Origin: a virus | Virus record (IMG/VR): IMGVR_UViG_3300048686_000449 | Span: 1-64,000 of that record | Reading direction: 5' to 3' (one strand) | DNA length: 64,000 nt | Shown here: one piece after another, positions 2,940 to 60,265 of the stretch | Numbering within the stretch: position 1 is the first letter of the stretch | Layout of the letters: every line of letters begins with the position of its first letter | Program-made: the position numbers and the translations under genes | Notes under the pieces: generated by a model | The model's database searches: none | Told to the model about the DNA's origin: nothing | The model's input: only the letters and a program-made list of their open reading frames with translations

Positions 2940-3418
2940 TTGAGATTCCCCTTCATCAATTGATGAAAGCGTTCGCGTGTGACCGTCTTGCGTTCGGTTT
3001 CAATCTTCTTTTCCCCCGTCAGATAGACGACCTGTCCTCTCACCAGGTGCGCCGTATAGTCCCAGGAAATCGCAGGATCGCCGTTGCCATCTTCTGTCAC
3101 CCAGACATATCCATCAGGGCTTGGTGTGCCTCCGCTGAGATTCGAGATATAAAAATTAATCGTGCCGTTAAAATCGGCGACTCGTTCTTCTCGTTCATTC
3201 ACTCGTGTCATCATCCCAGAGAGACGTTGAAGACCTTCCGCATTCGGATCACTTCGGTCTTCAATGTCGTAGGTGGTCACCCACAACGCGCCATTCGCAT
3301 CAATGCGATATTCATCCAACATCTGATTCGGTGTATCTTTCGTTTGAAAGCGAATTGAGGCACCATTCGGTTCATCAGGTAACGGATACTCACAGCGAAT
3401 CCAATCAAACATTCCCAT
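2936..3418 (-). CDS. conserved phage protein of the MGMFD-IRCEYPLP type, 160 aa
   Basis: The start at 3418 is chosen because SD AGGATGAGAAG lies directly upstream and because the N-terminus MGMFDWIRCEYPLPDEP is a recurring opening of uncharacterised proteins in many phages; a longer in-frame start 16 codons upstream has no such support. The rest is mostly beta-strand prone, ending in a charged helix. It is a soluble protein of unknown function, coupled by ATGA to the 39-aa membrane gene. Confidence 0.7.
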   Translation of the reverse strand: MGMFDWIRCEYPLPDEPNGASIRFQTKDTPNQMLDEYRIDANGALWVTTYDIEDRSDPNAEGLQRLSGMMTRVNEREERVADFNGTINFYISNLSGGTPSPDGYVWVTEDGNGDPAISWDYTAHLVRGQVVYLTGEKKIETERKTVTRERFHQLMKGNLK

Positions 3419-3432
3419 CTTCTCATCCTTTC

Positions 3433-3891
3433 TTATACAAGAATCGTATCGCCACAGATTTGACATCCACTTGAGACTCTAGCATCTCCAGAGACCCAAG
3501 CCTTCCCAAAGACCCAAGCATTCTCATAGACCCGAGCATATCCAGAGACCTTAGCATTTCCAGAGACCTGAGCATTTTCAGAGACCTTAGCATTCCCAAA
3601 GACCCGAGCATCTCCATAGACCTTAGCATTCCCAAAGACCCGAGCATCTCCATAGACCCAAGCATATCCACAGACCTCAGCATCTCCAGAGACACAAGCA
3701 TCTCCATAGACCCAAGCATTTCCAAAGACCAGAGCATGTCCAGAGACCTGAGCATTCCCAGAGACCTGAGCATCAGGACCAACAAAGGCTGATTCTTCTA
3801 CTGTCGCCGTCTCAGCAACCCAACCGCCACCGTTCTTATGTCGGTGGGCTGGGACTGGTCCGTTCCCATCTTGAAAGTCAAACATCCCCAT
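3433..3891 (-). CDS. hexapeptide-repeat left-handed beta-helix protein (paralogue 1)
   Basis: The start at 3891 gives 152 residues. An N-terminal module (FDFQDGNGPVPAHRH, then NGGGWVAETATVEESAFVGP) is followed by about 17 six-residue repeats of the type V-x-G-[DN]-A-x, as in left-handed beta-helix proteins (hexapeptide acyltransferases and related folds). No acyltransferase catalytic loop is visible, so it may be structural or binding. The DNA shows an 18-bp periodicity. The same N-terminal module occurs in the genes at 7351-7644 and 26725-27600. Confidence 0.75.
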   Translation of the reverse strand: MGMFDFQDGNGPVPAHRHKNGGGWVAETATVEESAFVGPDAQVSGNAQVSGHALVFGNAWVYGDACVSGDAEVCGYAWVYGDARVFGNAKVYGDARVFGNAKVSENAQVSGNAKVSGYARVYENAWVFGKAWVSGDARVSSGCQICGDTILV

Positions 3892-3892
3892 C

Positions 3893-4216
3893 TTAGTCTC
3901 CCTTCGTCGTAAACTGTGTGAGTTCATCCACACTCCAATAGGATTCGACAGGAACATCTTGCTGAATGGCTTGCAAGTAGGTGTCGAGTCCTTCGAGGGC
4001 ATCATTCACCGATTCCGCCAATCGATCATAATCATTCTCGCGGAGTTCATCTGCTCCCTCATCAATCACCACCATGATCGCCCTCCAGCGCATCCGTATA
4101 GCAAAGCTCGCCAGTTCGGGTTGGCAGAGGAATTCCTTCTTGGTATCATCCACTAAGATCTCTACTTCTGCTAAGAGTTGGTTAACATATTGCTGCGATT
4201 CTTCTGGTGATAGCAT
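3893..4216 (-). CDS. hypothetical helical protein, 107 aa
   Basis: SD AAGGGG lies upstream of the ATG at 4216. The sequence is acidic and almost wholly helical (for example SPEESQQYVNQLLAEVEILV), without Cys clusters or membrane segments. Its TGA ends one base before the beta-helix gene start. No family is recognised. Confidence 0.6.
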   Translation of the reverse strand: MLSPEESQQYVNQLLAEVEILVDDTKKEFLCQPELASFAIRMRWRAIMVVIDEGADELRENDYDRLAESVNDALEGLDTYLQAIQQDVPVESYWSVDELTQFTTKGD

Positions 4217-7350: not shown

Positions 7351-7644
7351 TTAGTTGAGGACCACATCTCCGAACACCCGTGAGGTTCCAGAGACCCGAG
7401 CATTTCCAGAGACCCAAGCATCTCCAGAGACCAGAGCATTCCCATAGACCCGAGCATTTCCAGAGACCCAAGCATCTCCAGAGACCAGAGCACTAGGTCC
7501 CACAAAGGCTGATTTTTCTACTGTGGCTGTCTCAGCGATCCAACCACCACCATTCGGATGTTGATGAGCAGGAACAGGTCCGTTCCCGTCTCTAAAGTCA
7601 AAGAGTGTCTTCTTATTTGTTTTCTTCTTGCGTTTCGTCATCAT
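7351..7644 (-). CDS. hexapeptide-repeat beta-helix protein (paralogue 2, short)
   Basis: 97 residues: a lysine-rich start (MMTKRKKKTNKK), the shared module FDFRDGNGPVPAHQHPNGGG, then only about eight hexapeptide turns (V-x-G-[DN]-A-x). It is the shortest of the three paralogues, so the repeat domain expands and contracts. SD AAGGAG. It probably forms a small beta-helix; no catalytic residues are visible. Confidence 0.75.
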   Translation of the reverse strand: MMTKRKKKTNKKTLFDFRDGNGPVPAHQHPNGGGWIAETATVEKSAFVGPSALVSGDAWVSGNARVYGNALVSGDAWVSGNARVSGTSRVFGDVVLN

Positions 7645-24462: not shown

Positions 24463-24470
24463 ACTAAATA
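24463..24470 (+). promoter_or_regulatory. putative late promoter of HNH cassette (ACTAAATA)
   Basis: Plus-strand ACTAAATA followed by GATGTGGGT, at the same position in the cassette as the exact TATAAATA at 55633-55640. Confidence 0.5.
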
Positions 24471-24473
24471 GAT

Positions 24474-24504
24474 GTGGGTCGCGATGTTATCAGCATCCAC
24501 CCAC
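24474..24504 (+). promoter_or_regulatory. conserved leader hairpin of homing endonuclease cassette
   Basis: GTGGGT pairs with ACCCAC and, inside, GATG with CATC; the loop differs from the copy at 55644-55674 while both stems are identical. It lies in the 5' leader between the late promoter and the start codon and may control translation. Confidence 0.6.
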
Positions 24505-24537
24505 TCTAACACTATAGATTTAGGAGGAGTGCCAGCT

Positions 24538-24597
24538 ATGTCTATTTATTCTACTAAAACTTATTCATTCGCATATCTCACGAGAGGTGGGATATGA
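24538..24597 (+). CDS. leader peptide coupled to HNH endonuclease, 19 aa
   Basis: After SD AGGAGG, the ORF MSIYSTKTYSFAYLTRGGI ends in TGA, which overlaps the HNH ATG. Its first four residues and FAYL resemble the N-terminus of the GIY-YIG protein at 55708 (MSIY, YAYL). It is probably a remnant start of a GIY-YIG gene replaced by HNH, now used for coupling. Confidence 0.5.
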   Translation: MSIYSTKTYSFAYLTRGGI

Positions 24598-25307
24598 ACT
24601 ACAAAAAAGTTTACTTCTCTTTGATTGAGAAACGAAAAACCACTCCAGTTTTGGGATATTCCGAATCTCACCATATCACACCAAGAAGTCTAGGAGGTTC
24701 AGACGCTCCAGATAACATCGTTGAATTGACGGCGAGGGAGCACTTCTTCGCTCATCTACTTCTCACAAAAATACACAAAAGAGGTCCGGCGAAATATAAG
24801 ATGGTCAGAGCTTTTATTATGATGCTTTGTGTTGCGGGTCAAAATCAACAGAGATATATCTCATCAAAAAGATATGACCAATTACGAAAACAATTTTCTA
24901 TTGCGCAATCATTATCACAATCAGGCGAAAGAAATTCTCAGTTCGGAACTTGTTGGGTCGTTCACGATCTATTCGGTCCAAAAAGAATAGAAAAATCCCT
25001 ATTCTGTGAATATGTAGAACAGGGATGGTATCTTGGAAGAACTTTCAATTATATACAAGAAAAGAAAACGTCAGTTCAGATAAAAGAAAGAAGAAAACAA
25101 AAAACTCTAAAAAAGTATCCCAATCTTGATGAGTGGTATCGCATATATGATGCGAAAGGATTTGAAGAATTTGTTAGAATTACTGGATACCCTCATTCAA
25201 AACCTAATTTGGTTACGTTATTCGCAAAATATGTTCCGTCTTTTGTCCCACAAAATAGAAAAAGAAGAGGTTGGCTGGCGGGGCAGGCTTCGATCCTGCG
25301 ACATTAG
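24594..25307 (+). CDS. HNH homing endonuclease (plus strand)
   Basis: 237 residues. The N-terminal nuclease core reads SHHITPRSLGGSDAPDNIV followed by ELTAREHFFAHLLL, the HNH/NHN-type motif common in free-standing phage endonucleases. The C-terminal part is basic with predicted DNA-binding helices. Its base composition (A-rich codons) differs from its neighbours, as expected for a mobile gene. It lies on the opposite strand between tRNA-Trp and tRNA-Asn, and its 3' end overlaps the tRNA-Asn gene. Confidence 0.88.
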   Translation: MNYKKVYFSLIEKRKTTPVLGYSESHHITPRSLGGSDAPDNIVELTAREHFFAHLLLTKIHKRGPAKYKMVRAFIMMLCVAGQNQQRYISSKRYDQLRKQFSIAQSLSQSGERNSQFGTCWVVHDLFGPKRIEKSLFCEYVEQGWYLGRTFNYIQEKKTSVQIKERRKQKTLKKYPNLDEWYRIYDAKGFEEFVRITGYPHSKPNLVTLFAKYVPSFVPQNRKRRGWLAGQASILRH

Positions 25308-25461: not shown

Positions 25462-25469
25462 TATTTAGT
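25462..25469 (-). promoter_or_regulatory. putative late promoter (ACTAAATA) before tRNAs
   Basis: The octamer coincides with the stop codon of the 49-aa gene and lies 22 bp upstream of tRNA-Met. Confidence 0.4.
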
Positions 25470-26724: not shown

Positions 26725-27600
26725 TCAACTCTTAATCCAAGTATTTCCGCCGATTTGTTTCTCTCCATAGATCTCGGCATCTCCAGAGATCCAAGTATAT
26801 CCATAGACCCAAGCATCTCTAGAGACCTGAGCATCTCCAGAGACACGAGCATTTCCATAGACCCGAGCATTTCCATAGACCTGAGCCTTTCCAAAGACCT
26901 GAGCATCTCCAGAGACACGAGCATTTCCATAGACCCGAGCATTTCCATAGACCTGAGCATCTCCAGAAACCCGAGCATCTCCAAAGACCCAAGCATCTCC
27001 ATAGATCAGAGCATTCCCATAGACCCAAGCATCTCCAGAGACTTGAGCATCTCCAGAGACACGAGCATTCTCATAGATCCGAGCCTTTCCAAAGACATGG
27101 GCATTTTCGGAGACTTTAGCGTTTTTAGAGATCCAAACATCCCCATAGACCTGAGCTTTTCCATAGACCTGGGCGTTGTCGCAGATCCAAGCTGTTTCAG
27201 AGACCCGAGCATTCTCGTAGACCTCAGCATTTCCAAAGATGCAAACATCATCGTAGATGTGAGCATTTCCAGAGATCCGAGCACTTTGAAAGATATGAGC
27301 ATTTCCATCAATAGCAGCACGTTCAGAAACCTTCGCCTGTCCAAAAACCCAAGCATTAGGTCCCACAAACGCAGATTCTTCTACCGTCGCCGTTTCAGCA
27401 ACCCAACCACCACCATTCTTATGTTGATGGGCTGGAACAGGTCCATTCCCATCCAAAAAGTCAAACATCAGAAGAGATGATGAACTTTGTTTCGGTAACT
27501 CCTCAATGCTAGGTGGCTTCGGTGACGCAGCAGTGACGCTCGGCAAGGCTACAGTCGCAAGCGATCCCAATACTACTTTGAAGAAAGTTCTACGATTCAT
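26725..27600 (-). CDS. Tat-exported hexapeptide beta-helix protein (paralogue 3)
   Basis: The start at 27600 gives MNRRTFFKVVLGSLA, a twin-arginine signal (RR-x-FFK) with a moderately hydrophobic core and a TAASP cleavage region. After a Ser/Pro linker comes the module shared with paralogues 1 and 2 (FDFLDGNGPVPAHQHKNGGG) and then about 35 hexapeptide turns (V-x-G-[DN]-A-x). Tat export implies folding in the cytoplasm before crossing the inner membrane. A rigid beta-helix rod in the periplasm or at the surface is likely; ligand or enzyme activity is unknown. Confidence 0.8.
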   Translation of the reverse strand: MNRRTFFKVVLGSLATVALPSVTAASPKPPSIEELPKQSSSSLLMFDFLDGNGPVPAHQHKNGGGWVAETATVEESAFVGPNAWVFGQAKVSERAAIDGNAHIFQSARISGNAHIYDDVCIFGNAEVYENARVSETAWICDNAQVYGKAQVYGDVWISKNAKVSENAHVFGKARIYENARVSGDAQVSGDAWVYGNALIYGDAWVFGDARVSGDAQVYGNARVYGNARVSGDAQVFGKAQVYGNARVYGNARVSGDAQVSRDAWVYGYTWISGDAEIYGEKQIGGNTWIKS

Positions 27601-27784
27601 TGGAATCCTCATTCAATCCAAAGACTTCACGAATCTTCTGAGCCGCACCGCCACTGGTCATCTGAGTGGCTTCACCCTCTTCACAAATTCTCGCGCATTC
27701 CTCTGCGACCGCTTGAGTATAATGAATCATATCTGTCGTGGAAGAATGATCTAGAATCAAATTAATCATGAGATCTTCGTTCAT
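27590..27784 (-). CDS. hypothetical acidic protein, 64 aa
   Basis: Good SD (GGAG) before ATG 27784. It is helical with two Cys in the middle (AVAEECARICEEGEA) and an acidic end. It overlaps the start of the Tat-exported beta-helix gene, so the two are probably co-translated. Confidence 0.55.
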   Translation of the reverse strand: MNEDLMINLILDHSSTTDMIHYTQAVAEECARICEEGEATQMTSGGAAQKIREVFGLNEDSNES

Positions 27785-55632: not shown

Positions 55633-55640
55633 TATAAATA
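55633..55640 (+). promoter_or_regulatory. late promoter of GIY-YIG cassette (TATAAATA)
   Basis: Exact plus-strand TATAAATA followed by GATGTGGGT, the cassette sequence shared with 24463. Confidence 0.65.
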
Positions 55641-55643
55641 GAT

Positions 55644-55674
55644 GTGGGTCGCGATGCTACTAACATCCACCCAC
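55644..55674 (+). promoter_or_regulatory. conserved leader hairpin of homing endonuclease cassette
   Basis: GTGGGT/ACCCAC and GATG/CATC stems identical to 24474-24504, with a different loop (CTACTAA). It lies between the late promoter and the SD (AAGGGAG). Confidence 0.6.
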
Positions 55675-55707
55675 TCTAACACCATAGCTTTAGAAGGGAG
55701 TGTCAGC

Positions 55708-56370
55708 ATGTCTATTTATAATACTACAAACAACATCTCAAGTCAAGAAACCCAATACAAGTTCTATGTCTACGCTTATCTGAGAAAGCGAAACGGAACT
55801 CCATATTACATCGGAAAAGGTAAAGGTCGTCGTGTATATGCTACTCATAAAGGAATTTCTATTCCTTCAGATCGTTCTAAAATTATATTTCTAGAAAAGA
55901 ATCTAAGTGAAGTTGGTGCGTTCGCATTAGAAAGAAGATATATCAGATGGTATGGAAGAAAAGATCTGGGAACAGGAATCCTTCTCAATAAAACAGACGG
56001 CGGAGAGGGAACAGATAACATCTCACCTGAAACAAGAAAAAAGCGATCAGAATCAAGAAAAAGATGGTGTAAAGAAAATCCAAATTCAAATCCAATGAAT
56101 AATCCAAAATATCGCGAAAAAATCAGCAAATCTTTGACAGGAAGACATCATTCACCAGAAACTATAGAAAAACTCAAAAAGTCTCATAAAGGAATGACTG
56201 GAAGAAGACACTCTGATGAAACACGAGCGAAAATATCAGAAACTAAGAAAAGAAAATGGCAAAATCCAGAATTCAGACAAAAAATGATGAGTGTGCTTCA
56301 AGGAACAGAATATAGAGAAAAAATGTCCAAAACTATGAAGGAACTCTTGTCAACGCAAGAATCTTCTTGA
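55708..56370 (+). CDS. GIY-YIG homing endonuclease with NUMOD3 repeats (plus strand)
   Basis: 220 residues from ATG 55708. The nuclease core [20 protein letters not shown] carries the Tyr-x-Tyr and Gly of GIY-YIG, with the catalytic Arg in RRVYATHKG. The C-terminal part has NUMOD3-type DNA-binding repeats ([40 protein letters not shown]). A-rich codons and plus orientation mark it as mobile. Its end converges on the gene 56333-56611, overlapping 38 bases. Confidence 0.9.
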
Positions 56371-56983: not shown

Positions 56984-58210
56984 TTATTTCTCCCAATTTT
57001 TGGCGGATTGAAAATTGGCCCTGGAAAAAATCAGTCTGTCAATCAATTTTACAGCATTACCTTTCTTCAAGTTCACCGCCACAAAGCCTTCTGGTGTCGT
57101 GGCTCTGAACCCAGTATCGGTGCGCAGGAAGGTTCCGAGACTCTTGATCTGTTGTATTTTTCTGACAATCACCAACTTAGCTTGAACTAAGGCATTCATC
57201 AATTCAATCATGACGATTAATGAGGCATAGTTCGTGCGCAAAAAGCCAATCGTTTGCGTCTTTTCTTTCGTGCGATTCGCTTTTGTTTCAGCTTTCTTCG
57301 CACTCAAAATCTCTTGATTCAGTTCTGTTTCATAGGTCCGAATAAACTGATTGATAAACAGAGGTGGCTTCTCAATACTCTGCCCCTGACGAATTTGCGC
57401 ATTCTGAAACTTTTTGAGTGCAGCGATAATCTTTTCCTGAACCAATAATTGACCCATAAACCGTGAAGGAAGCTGTTTCACTAATCTCTGCGCCTCAACA
57501 ATATGATCTGTCACATCCTGCGTTTCTTCTTTGGTGAAGGTCGCGAGTCCACTTTCATCGACAAATGAGGCATCACGGAACCAGACCGATTTGATATGAT
57601 GAAGTGAACCGATATCGACGTTGAATGAGGCTTGCATATCCGCCATCGTTTTCCCATGATAGGAGGTATGGAACACAATTCCAATTTCAGCCTCAAGCAT
57701 CCGTTTGATCAGCGTTGAGTCCTTCGGGACCGCATAGACAATCGTATTTGGTTGGAAGGTGTAATAGTGCTCGCCATCGATGGTTTCTGATTTCAGATCG
57801 CCTTTGGTGAATAACATATCACCTTGCAGCACACCCTTGATGCCAATCTCCGAGAGATATCGCAGCGCCACCTTGAGTTTCTTATTCAATCCTTCGGCGG
57901 GGTGATTTTTATCAATATCGGCATCAGTGAAGTTCAACTTCGGCGATTTCGCAAACACTGACTTGGTGCCGACGAAAAACTTTTTGGATTCAGGATCAAT
58001 ACCGCAAACGATAGCAGGTGCGCCATCCCACTTGGTCGTGATATTGATTTGTTGATCAACATCACCTGACAACATATCGCGCAATGACCGCAAGAAATTG
58101 ACGGCATCATTGGCGCCAGCCAAGCCACGATTCAACACCTCATCTTCGAGGTGTTCCAGATGGACGTTTTTACCTTCTTTAGATTCTTTGAGGAACTGAG
58201 AGAATTTCAT
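56984..58210 (-). CDS. DUF6267-like protein, full-length copy, 408 aa
   Basis: The start at 58210. After MKFSQFLKESKEGKNVHLEH comes INITTKWDGAPAIVCGID, where K-W-D-G resembles the nucleotidyltransferase motif I of ligase-like folds, then KFFVGTKSVFAKSPK and GIKGVLQGDMLFTKG. DUF6267-type proteins are common in T4-like phages; a nucleotidyltransferase role is inferred from the KxDG motif. A broken second copy lies at 58796-59150. Confidence 0.75.
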   Translation of the reverse strand: MKFSQFLKESKEGKNVHLEHLEDEVLNRGLAGANDAVNFLRSLRDMLSGDVDQQINITTKWDGAPAIVCGIDPESKKFFVGTKSVFAKSPKLNFTDADIDKNHPAEGLNKKLKVALRYLSEIGIKGVLQGDMLFTKGDLKSETIDGEHYYTFQPNTIVYAVPKDSTLIKRMLEAEIGIVFHTSYHGKTMADMQASFNVDIGSLHHIKSVWFRDASFVDESGLATFTKEETQDVTDHIVEAQRLVKQLPSRFMGQLLVQEKIIAALKKFQNAQIRQGQSIEKPPLFINQFIRTYETELNQEILSAKKAETKANRTKEKTQTIGFLRTNYASLIVMIELMNALVQAKLVIVRKIQQIKSLGTFLRTDTGFRATTPEGFVAVNLKKGNAVKLIDRLIFSRANFQSAKNWEK

Positions 58211-58223
58211 CACGTGATGACCT

Positions 58224-58799: not shown

Positions 58800-59150
58800 A
58801 GAGTCGCAATCTTGAGTTTTTTATTCAGTCCCTCGCCTGGATGATTTTGATCAATATCCGCATCAGTGAAGTTTAACTTGGGAGATTGGGCAAAGACTGA
58901 TTTGGTGCCGACGAAAAACTTTTTGGATGTGGGATCAATACCACAAAATGACCGCACGTGCGCCATCCCATTTGGTAGTGATATTTACTCGACGATCTGC
59001 GTCTCCCGACAACATATCGCGCAATGAGCGCAGAAAATTCACTGCATCAGTCGCTCCCGACAGACCACGGTTAATCACCTCGTCCTCAAGGTGCTCGAGA
59101 TGGACGTTTTTACCTTCTTTAGATTCTGTAAGATATTGAAGAAATTTCAT
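58796..59150 (-). pseudogene. truncated, frameshifted second copy of the DUF6267 gene
   Basis: The first 64 codons match the start of the gene at 58210 (MKFLQYLTESKEGKNVHLEH). One extra T near the KWDG region shifts the frame to a stop (WY, TGA at 58935); in the next frame the homologue resumes (CGIDPTSKKFFVGTKSVFAQ) and runs to KKLKIATL, where it ends at the next gene's ATG. Only about 118 of 408 codons remain, so this is a decayed tandem copy. Confidence 0.85.
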
Positions 59151-60265
59151 TACAATTGAATCCCTAGTTTATCACGAACTCTATCCCAAGAGGCTTTACT
59201 ACGAAACGCATATTCGTCCCCCACATGATAAGTATCTAATTGAAATACTTTAGTAGCATCTGCGGTTGTCTGTAGGTGAAATTGAGGTATACCATCTTTC
59301 GTCAACCCCATTTTAATGATATTCAGATCTGGAAATAGAGCTTTCATGATATCATCAAATTTAAAATCTGATACTGAAGATATGTACTTAATCATCCCGA
59401 ATACTACATTAACACTCAAAAATCCATACCCATCTTTATCTTTTTTAGCCATAGCTTTAGTTTCTTGCTTCTTCTGAGTAGAAATCTTATCAAATACATA
59501 CTCAGTTAAAAAAGATTCGTATGCTTTTTGATTAGATAACTTCAACTTAGAGATATACTCTTCTTTATTTTTTTCCAATTTAACGGCATCTGCTGCGAAA
59601 TTAACGTTCCTAAAAATATTATAGACCTTCGAATCAAATCCTTCAGCCAACTTTTTCTTTTCCATCATCAACCCAAAAGCATTAACAACTCCAGAAAACA
59701 TCCCCCCATCCGTTAACGCCCTCAGCACATCTATCTCTACCTGAAAATTACGAAAGTCTGCCTGTGTTTTCATTTCGGTCATACGCTCAATAAACAGCCT
59801 CGGAACTAAGGGATTAGAACCACCCTTTAATGCCTTTGAGCTAAACCCATAATGAATTCCGTCTTTCACAAAGAAATCAAATATTTCATAATTTTGTCTA
59901 GTCGGAAACACAATATTATGCATCTTCTCTGATGTACTTTTTTGTAGAACAGTCAAAGCAAAAAAAGGACCAAGAACTTCACCGAAATTTTTAATGATAT
60001 CGGTATCAGGAATATTATTTTTCTTGTACAATGATGCTAAAGGTATCGTTTTTTTCCCACCCATATATTCAACAAGGGCAATAAGATATTCTTTTGATCC
60101 GCGATCCAAAGACTTAATAATATTAACCTTTTCCACCAACAGCTGTTGGTATTTACCGATAGGAATCACCCAAAACTTATCGTTCGATTTTCTGACCAAA
60201 GAGGGAATGTCTTGTGATCTTTCGCGTTCGAACAAACTAGAAGGTTGTAATGATTCCCAAGCCAT
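59150..60265 (-). CDS. hypothetical protein under late promoter, 371 aa
   Basis: ATG 60265 (SD AAGGAG). A Lys/Phe/Asn-rich, mostly helical protein with a central block HYGFSSKALKGGSNPLVPRL and a C-terminal beta part. A perfect TATAAATA stands 21 bp upstream. Codon use is more A/T-rich than the neighbours. No family is recognised; it is the largest unassigned gene of this end. Confidence 0.6.
   Translation of the reverse strand: MAWESLQPSSLFERERSQDIPSLVRKSNDKFWVIPIGKYQQLLVEKVNIIKSLDRGSKEYLIALVEYMGGKKTIPLASLYKKNNIPDTDIIKNFGEVLGPFFALTVLQKSTSEKMHNIVFPTRQNYEIFDFFVKDGIHYGFSSKALKGGSNPLVPRLFIERMTEMKTQADFRNFQVEIDVLRALTDGGMFSGVVNAFGLMMEKKKLAEGFDSKVYNIFRNVNFAADAVKLEKNKEEYISKLKLSNQKAYESFLTEYVFDKISTQKKQETKAMAKKDKDGYGFLSVNVVFGMIKYISSVSDFKFDDIMKALFPDLNIIKMGLTKDGIPQFHLQTTADATKVFQLDTYHVGDEYAFRSKASWDRVRDKLGIQL

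Follow-up and report, generated by a model that had tools for sequence, protein, structure and literature searches.

Control by leader RNA is already established for single homing-endonuclease genes in T4-like phages, where every such gene has a hairpin of its own. In these phages, single homing genes carry an RNA hairpin together with a late promoter, from which late transcripts arise that lack the inhibitory half (PMC2988022). The combination of an RNA hairpin with a late or middle promoter has been described for I-TevI, I-TevII, I-TevIII and segB of T4 and for mobE of Aeh1, and in Aeromonas phage 25 a stable hairpin lies upstream of the ribosome site of the GIY-YIG gene seg43(25) (PMC2988022).

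The module described here occurs twice in the window, i.e. the first 64,000 bases of a viral genome record of 75,898 bases. As in the T4 and Aeh1 leaders, a homing endonuclease gene of a T4-like phage is preceded by a structured leader with a putative late promoter directly upstream, and a candidate inhibitory structure would be present in read-through RNA only. Unlike in T4 phages, where each leader has its own hairpin, one covarying RNA family is common to many unrelated nucleases. No homologue of the module was found among the leader hairpins of T4, Aeh1 and Aeromonas phage 25 at E ≤ 0.1 in those genomes, and the same model finds Caulobacter phage Cr30 at E = 3e-10. The module shares with seg43(25) a stable hairpin that precedes a GIY-YIG gene and lies 5' of its ribosome site without covering it, but the phage 25 genome gives no model match, and no common sequence or second hairpin is known. 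It also resembles the cis-acting leaders of Rfam in being a conserved structured leader with compensatory changes, but matches no Rfam family, including self-splicing introns and ribozymes, at the gathering score or at E < 1. As no description of the motif was found in the open-access literature either, the RNA family itself is absent from Rfam and the searchable open-access literature. Comparison with the known systems suggests that the module most likely works like the leaders of I-TevI, segB and mobE, but as one conserved RNA family, which is present in hundreds of viral contigs and associated with several unrelated homing-gene families.

Module copies in the viral genome

Both window copies (24463-24548 and 55633-55718) were located exactly where the original prediction had placed about 80 nearly identical bases, and they share the stretch from the promoter box through the first codons, comprising a TAAATA box, the hairpin P2, the hairpin P3 around the Shine-Dalgarno sequence and the first codons (Table 1). 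The RNA leader has a length of approximately 65–75 bases. The pattern GTGGGTCGCGATG-N7-CATCCACCCAC, which spans P2, is matched exactly in both copies, with no occurrence expected in shuffles (64 kb, no mismatch). The gene assignments downstream (HNH and GIY-YIG) and the 19-aa leader ORF overlapping the HNH start codon were likewise correct, whereas of the late promoters assigned to both copies only the second has the canonical TATAAATA; the first has ACTAAATA. A third copy is located beyond the window on the minus strand (genome 69209-69292, G000:C1) and precedes a GIY-YIG gene of 219 aa, which lies between genes whose sequences look to us like those of clamp-loader genes and regA. Its inner stem is GGAA/TTCC instead of GATG/CATC in the window copies, i.e. 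a compensatory change.

Table 1 Features of the two module copies and of the genes that follow them, in window coordinates.
Feature	Position	Strand	Evidence
ACTAAATA, putative T4-type late promoter, copy 1 (TAAATA 24465-24470); possible P1 5' arm as RNA	24463-24470	+	ACTAAATA recurs 5' of other genes here
P2 hairpin, copy 1: GTGGGT, CGC, GATG, loop, CATC, C, ACCCAC	24474-24504	+	covariation; model match E = 1.1e-20
TCTAA, conserved unpaired, copy 1	24505-24509	+	alignment
P3, copy 1: CACT 24510-24513 / AGTG 24528-24531; Shine-Dalgarno AGGAGG 24522-24527	24510-24531	+	sequence; compensatory changes
CAGC, conserved, 5' of start codon, copy 1	24533-24536	+	alignment
Leader ORF MSIYSTKTYSFAYLTRGGI; stop overlaps HNH start (ATGA); TATTTA 24543-24548, possible P1 3' arm	24538-24597	+	sequence
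HNH homing endonuclease, 237 aa	24594-25307	+	phrog_655 E = 2.7e-42; alignment with named relatives begins at residue 1
TATAAATA, putative T4-type late promoter, copy 2; possible P1 5' arm	55633-55640	+	sequence
P2 hairpin, copy 2	55644-55674	+	exact pattern; model match
TCTAA junction and P3 (ACAC...GTGT), copy 2; Shine-Dalgarno AAGGGA 55694-55699	55675-55703	+	sequence; model match
Start codon and TCTATTTATA, copy 2, possible P1 3' arm	55708-55720	+	opening energies
GIY-YIG homing endonuclease with NUMOD3, 220 aa	55708-56370	+	family matches

Conserved fold of the leader RNA

In two alignments, both of which had been fitted to the model, the pair cells of P2 and P3 were standard in 94.3% and 95.2%. 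Double-sided changes numbered 274 and 241, compared with 81 and 69 in shuffles, and were distributed over 13 and 14 of the 14 pairs. The covariation score was reached by 0/500 shuffles, and pairing dropped to 29-51% in slid registers. RNAalifold recovered P2 and P3 unprompted from an unfitted alignment, where it pairs the middle G of the CGC in P2 with the C across from it, so that two bulges of one C each remain. An absence of compensatory change, which would have spoken against the module as originally proposed, was thus not observed; the changes are massive. The P2 hairpin is made up of two parts, with the conserved CGC/C junction between them, the Shine-Dalgarno sequence lies in or beside the P3 loop, and the start codon follows CAGC. 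The unpaired bases are conserved and the stems are free to vary, although in the set retrieved by pattern the conservation of TCTAA is partly built in because TCTAA was contained in the search patterns.

Distribution of the module

Exact-pattern scans of IMG/VR with strict forms retrieved 1, 3 and 8 contigs, and three looser patterns yielded at least 117, at least 120 and at least 120 stretches. Clustering at 80% identity gave at least 104 and at least 106 separate modules in two IMG/VR sets, and at least 210 modules in IMG/VR viral contigs are less than 80% identical to one another, with up to 13 copies on one large viral contig. By an independent route, a hand count found the module in 69 of 79 contigs chosen solely for encoding a relative of the GIY-YIG protein, where it ends nearly always at the nuclease start. 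The coincidence of recent recombination at only two sites, considered at the outset, therefore does not apply to hundreds of copies 5' of several nuclease families. Among cultured phages, one module each lies 5' of a homing-type gene in Cr30 (OZ74_gp204) and in Pseudoalteromonas phage vB_Psh_XG4 (E = 2e-8), and the CGC/C junction is kept in both, with an outer stem GCTAAT/ATTAGC in the latter. Since the cultured phage Cr30 has a module copy, the control of homing timing is directly testable.

As in T4, Aeh1 and Aeromonas phage 25, the model gave no match at E ≤ 0.1 in KVP40, HTVC008M, phiM12 and five other phages, and a single scan of prokaryote genomes returned no credible copy; five pattern matches in the latter were judged to be chance (best model score 21 bits), as was a match in Synechococcus phage B23 (E = 0.004), which is without the P2 core and promoter. 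A blastn search of the module against named phages gave mostly noise, yet pointed to Cr30. Some leaders are followed by a very short ORF only and have no nuclease, being solo or decayed (L007, 1979-2064; L129, 9310-9422; L101, 4564-4649). The module offers a means of locating homing genes by sequence, NUMOD3-only proteins and such solo leaders among them.

Exchange of leaders between homing genes

The genes 3' of the module are nearly all of homing-endonuclease types, including those of the set found by DNA pattern alone. Of 94 proteins encoded downstream, 73 match phrog_314 and 36 match phrog_655, which are both phrogs of homing endonucleases, and NUMOD3 is present in 53. Their motifs divide them into several subfamilies each of GIY-YIG and HNH, and NUMOD3-only proteins. 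The HNH protein of the window, in spite of its phrog_655 match, is under the Pfam HNH cut-off. Leaders of the window HNH and GIY-YIG genes are 82% identical although the proteins are unrelated, whereas the pair of related GIY-YIG genes in this genome have leaders that are 65% identical (between-genome mean 63%). Judged from these identities, leader and nuclease are uncoupled and swap partners. Together with the stem covariation and the hundreds of copies in front of several families, this strongly supports the original prediction of a regulatory module captured by unrelated nucleases, and it points to regulatory parts being held in common and traded among selfish genes.

The further proposal that the HNH gene replaced a GIY-YIG gene receives modest support. 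The 19-aa leader peptide resembles GIY-YIG N-termini in its stretch YSFAYLTRGG (shuffle p = 0.01), so that the leader ORF is a probable remnant of such an N-terminus, and named HNH relatives align from the protein's own ATG at 24594. On the simplest history, the HNH gene would have arrived downstream of a GIY-YIG leader that was already in place, and would now be translated by coupling. A peptide-pattern search for relatives of the window HNH in viral contigs gave none.

At its 3' end the HNH gene shares 36 bp with a tRNA-Asn gene on the other strand (window 25272-25307), and its relatives from Rhizobium phages IC12 and LG08 and from Vibrio phage SRILMA likewise overlap a tRNA gene, which suggests tRNA genes as homing targets. 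Small proteins of about 140-185 aa follow the leaders L008, L094, L112, L154, L156, L171, L182, L187 and L435; several have a common N-terminus (LCExLxxEF...SDQxLN) and NUMOD3-like repeats with no evident GIY-YIG/HNH catalytic part, and may be homing proteins that only bind DNA or a nuclease that has escaped recognition.

The sharing of one leader among unrelated nucleases also bears on its mode of action, since it argues against autoregulation by one nuclease. The leader could instead be the binding site of a trans-acting factor (a protein of the phage or the host, or else a small ligand) that reads the CGC/C junction, TCTAA and CAGC and switches translation or mRNA stability, the pairing of promoter and codons being incidental. 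The conservation of unpaired bases beside variable stems and the persistence of the junction in vB_Psh_XG4 and Cr30 are in line with this explanation, but Rfam has no match, RNA packing alone could explain the conserved bases, and part of these were set by the search patterns; we regard it as a serious though rather unlikely alternative. A related and similarly tentative idea is that the module is a mobile riboregulator tied to no one nuclease, traded among selfish genes and read by a dedicated factor via the P2 junction, which would provide one signal for up to 13 leaders per phage genome.

Putative promoter, possible start-codon pairing and proposed mode of action

We consider it fairly probable that the module is a portable late-expression cassette for phage homing endonucleases, composed of a T4-type late promoter and a conserved structured RNA leader. 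TAAATA is present in 95/104 and 102/106 non-redundant copies (197/210), mostly 3-5 nt 5' of P2, which at sequence level places a T4-type late promoter directly 5' of the leader. ACTAAATA and TATAAATA recur in this genome mainly just upstream of genes, which favours promoter function without proving it. One further ACTAAATA is found on the minus strand at window 25462-25469, just upstream of tRNA-Met, and may drive late transcription of the tRNA cluster in antisense to the HNH gene.

Under the cassette model, late transcription would start with the first bases of P2 or right next to them. The resulting mRNA would have P2 as its 5' end and display the ribosome site in P3, so that the nuclease would be made late. 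In the HNH copy, the leader ORF would hand ribosomes to the HNH start via the ATGA overlap. The T4-like control by a leader hairpin, as originally proposed, fits in kind, but P2, the hairpin on which that proposal was built, leaves the ribosome site uncovered, and any sequestration would have to be due to the promoter stretch pairing with codons 2-5 (P1, putative). RNA entering from upstream carries the promoter stretch, whose UAAAUA may pair with UAUUUA of the first codons; P1 might then complete a three-way junction that encloses the start codon, and keep translation low. The conserved unpaired bases count against the cassette model, as they exceed what simple occlusion needs.

TATTTA, the complement of the promoter core TAAATA, occurs at +3 to +17 in 76/104 copies versus 1/1433 windows inside the same genes. 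As it is found in three reading frames (126/24/13) and through biased codons (TAT for Tyr, 90/93 vs 512/690, p = 3e-8; ATT for Ile, 67/78 vs 515/1141), its sequence pattern indicates selection as nucleotides. In copies 2 and 3, folded read-through RNA is predicted to pair the promoter stretch with the start region, at an additional opening cost of about 5.5 kcal/mol (copy 2: 11.4 vs 5.9 kcal/mol in RNA starting from P2). Across all copies the mean cost of opening the start is 8.2 in read-through and 6.4 kcal/mol in late RNA and is higher in the former in 85%; the read-through cost exceeds that with shuffled flanks (p = 3e-5), and own flanks were not significantly better than those of other modules (p = 0.12).

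Both P1 arms are conserved, but RNAalifold does not return P1 among its helices, and no flanking pair covaries singly. As proof, the length of the whole helix was rejected: its excess is significant by shuffling (z 2.95) but outscored by an arbitrary non-Watson-Crick mapping (z 4.4), and common ancestry may explain it. A greater retention of TATTTA beside codirectional genes was dropped as well (p = 0.04 at first, p = 0.56 in an independent set). The majority of copies face an opposing upstream gene, so little read-through is expected. For a read-through-only structure covering the start, the energies agree and the covariation does not exceed its control; because the covariation failed against arbitrary mapping and the orientation effect was not replicated, we infer P1 in read-through RNA as a plausible pairing.

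The orientation of the neighbours and the position of the box would also suit a leader without switching, in which P2 is merely a 5'-terminal hairpin guarding the late mRNA from decay and P3 merely displays the ribosome site: with the box 3-5 nt away, P2 would come to lie right at the 5' terminus of the late mRNA, and copies facing opposing genes have little need of read-through control. We hold this to be improbable, since a hairpin in such a role could do without an invariant CGC/C junction, without TCTAA and CAGC, and without a TATTTA kept as nucleotides. Conservation of the stretch as DNA, with TAAATA and TATTTA as two convergent late promoters or as ends of a recombination unit, draws on TATTTA being the reverse complement of the promoter core, on a perfect TATAAATA on the minus strand of copy 2 (55720-55713) and on the swapping of leaders, but is very improbable given the P2/P3 covariation, which shows that the single-stranded fold matters, the nearly fixed distance from box to start codon, and the flanks of the minus-strand box (mostly AA vs TA, AC and GA for plus-strand promoters), which disfavour a minus-strand promoter.

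Other features of the window

On the minus strand at window 26725-27612, 18-bp DNA repeats encode a protein of six-residue repeats (GNARVY/GDAQVS) with a twin-arginine-like N-terminus, which probably folds as a left-handed beta-helix; related repeats are found near 3358-3900 and 7365-7615. A duplication of approximately 350 bp is present at 57866-58213 and 58805-59153, with 78-85% identity between copies located 940 bp apart.
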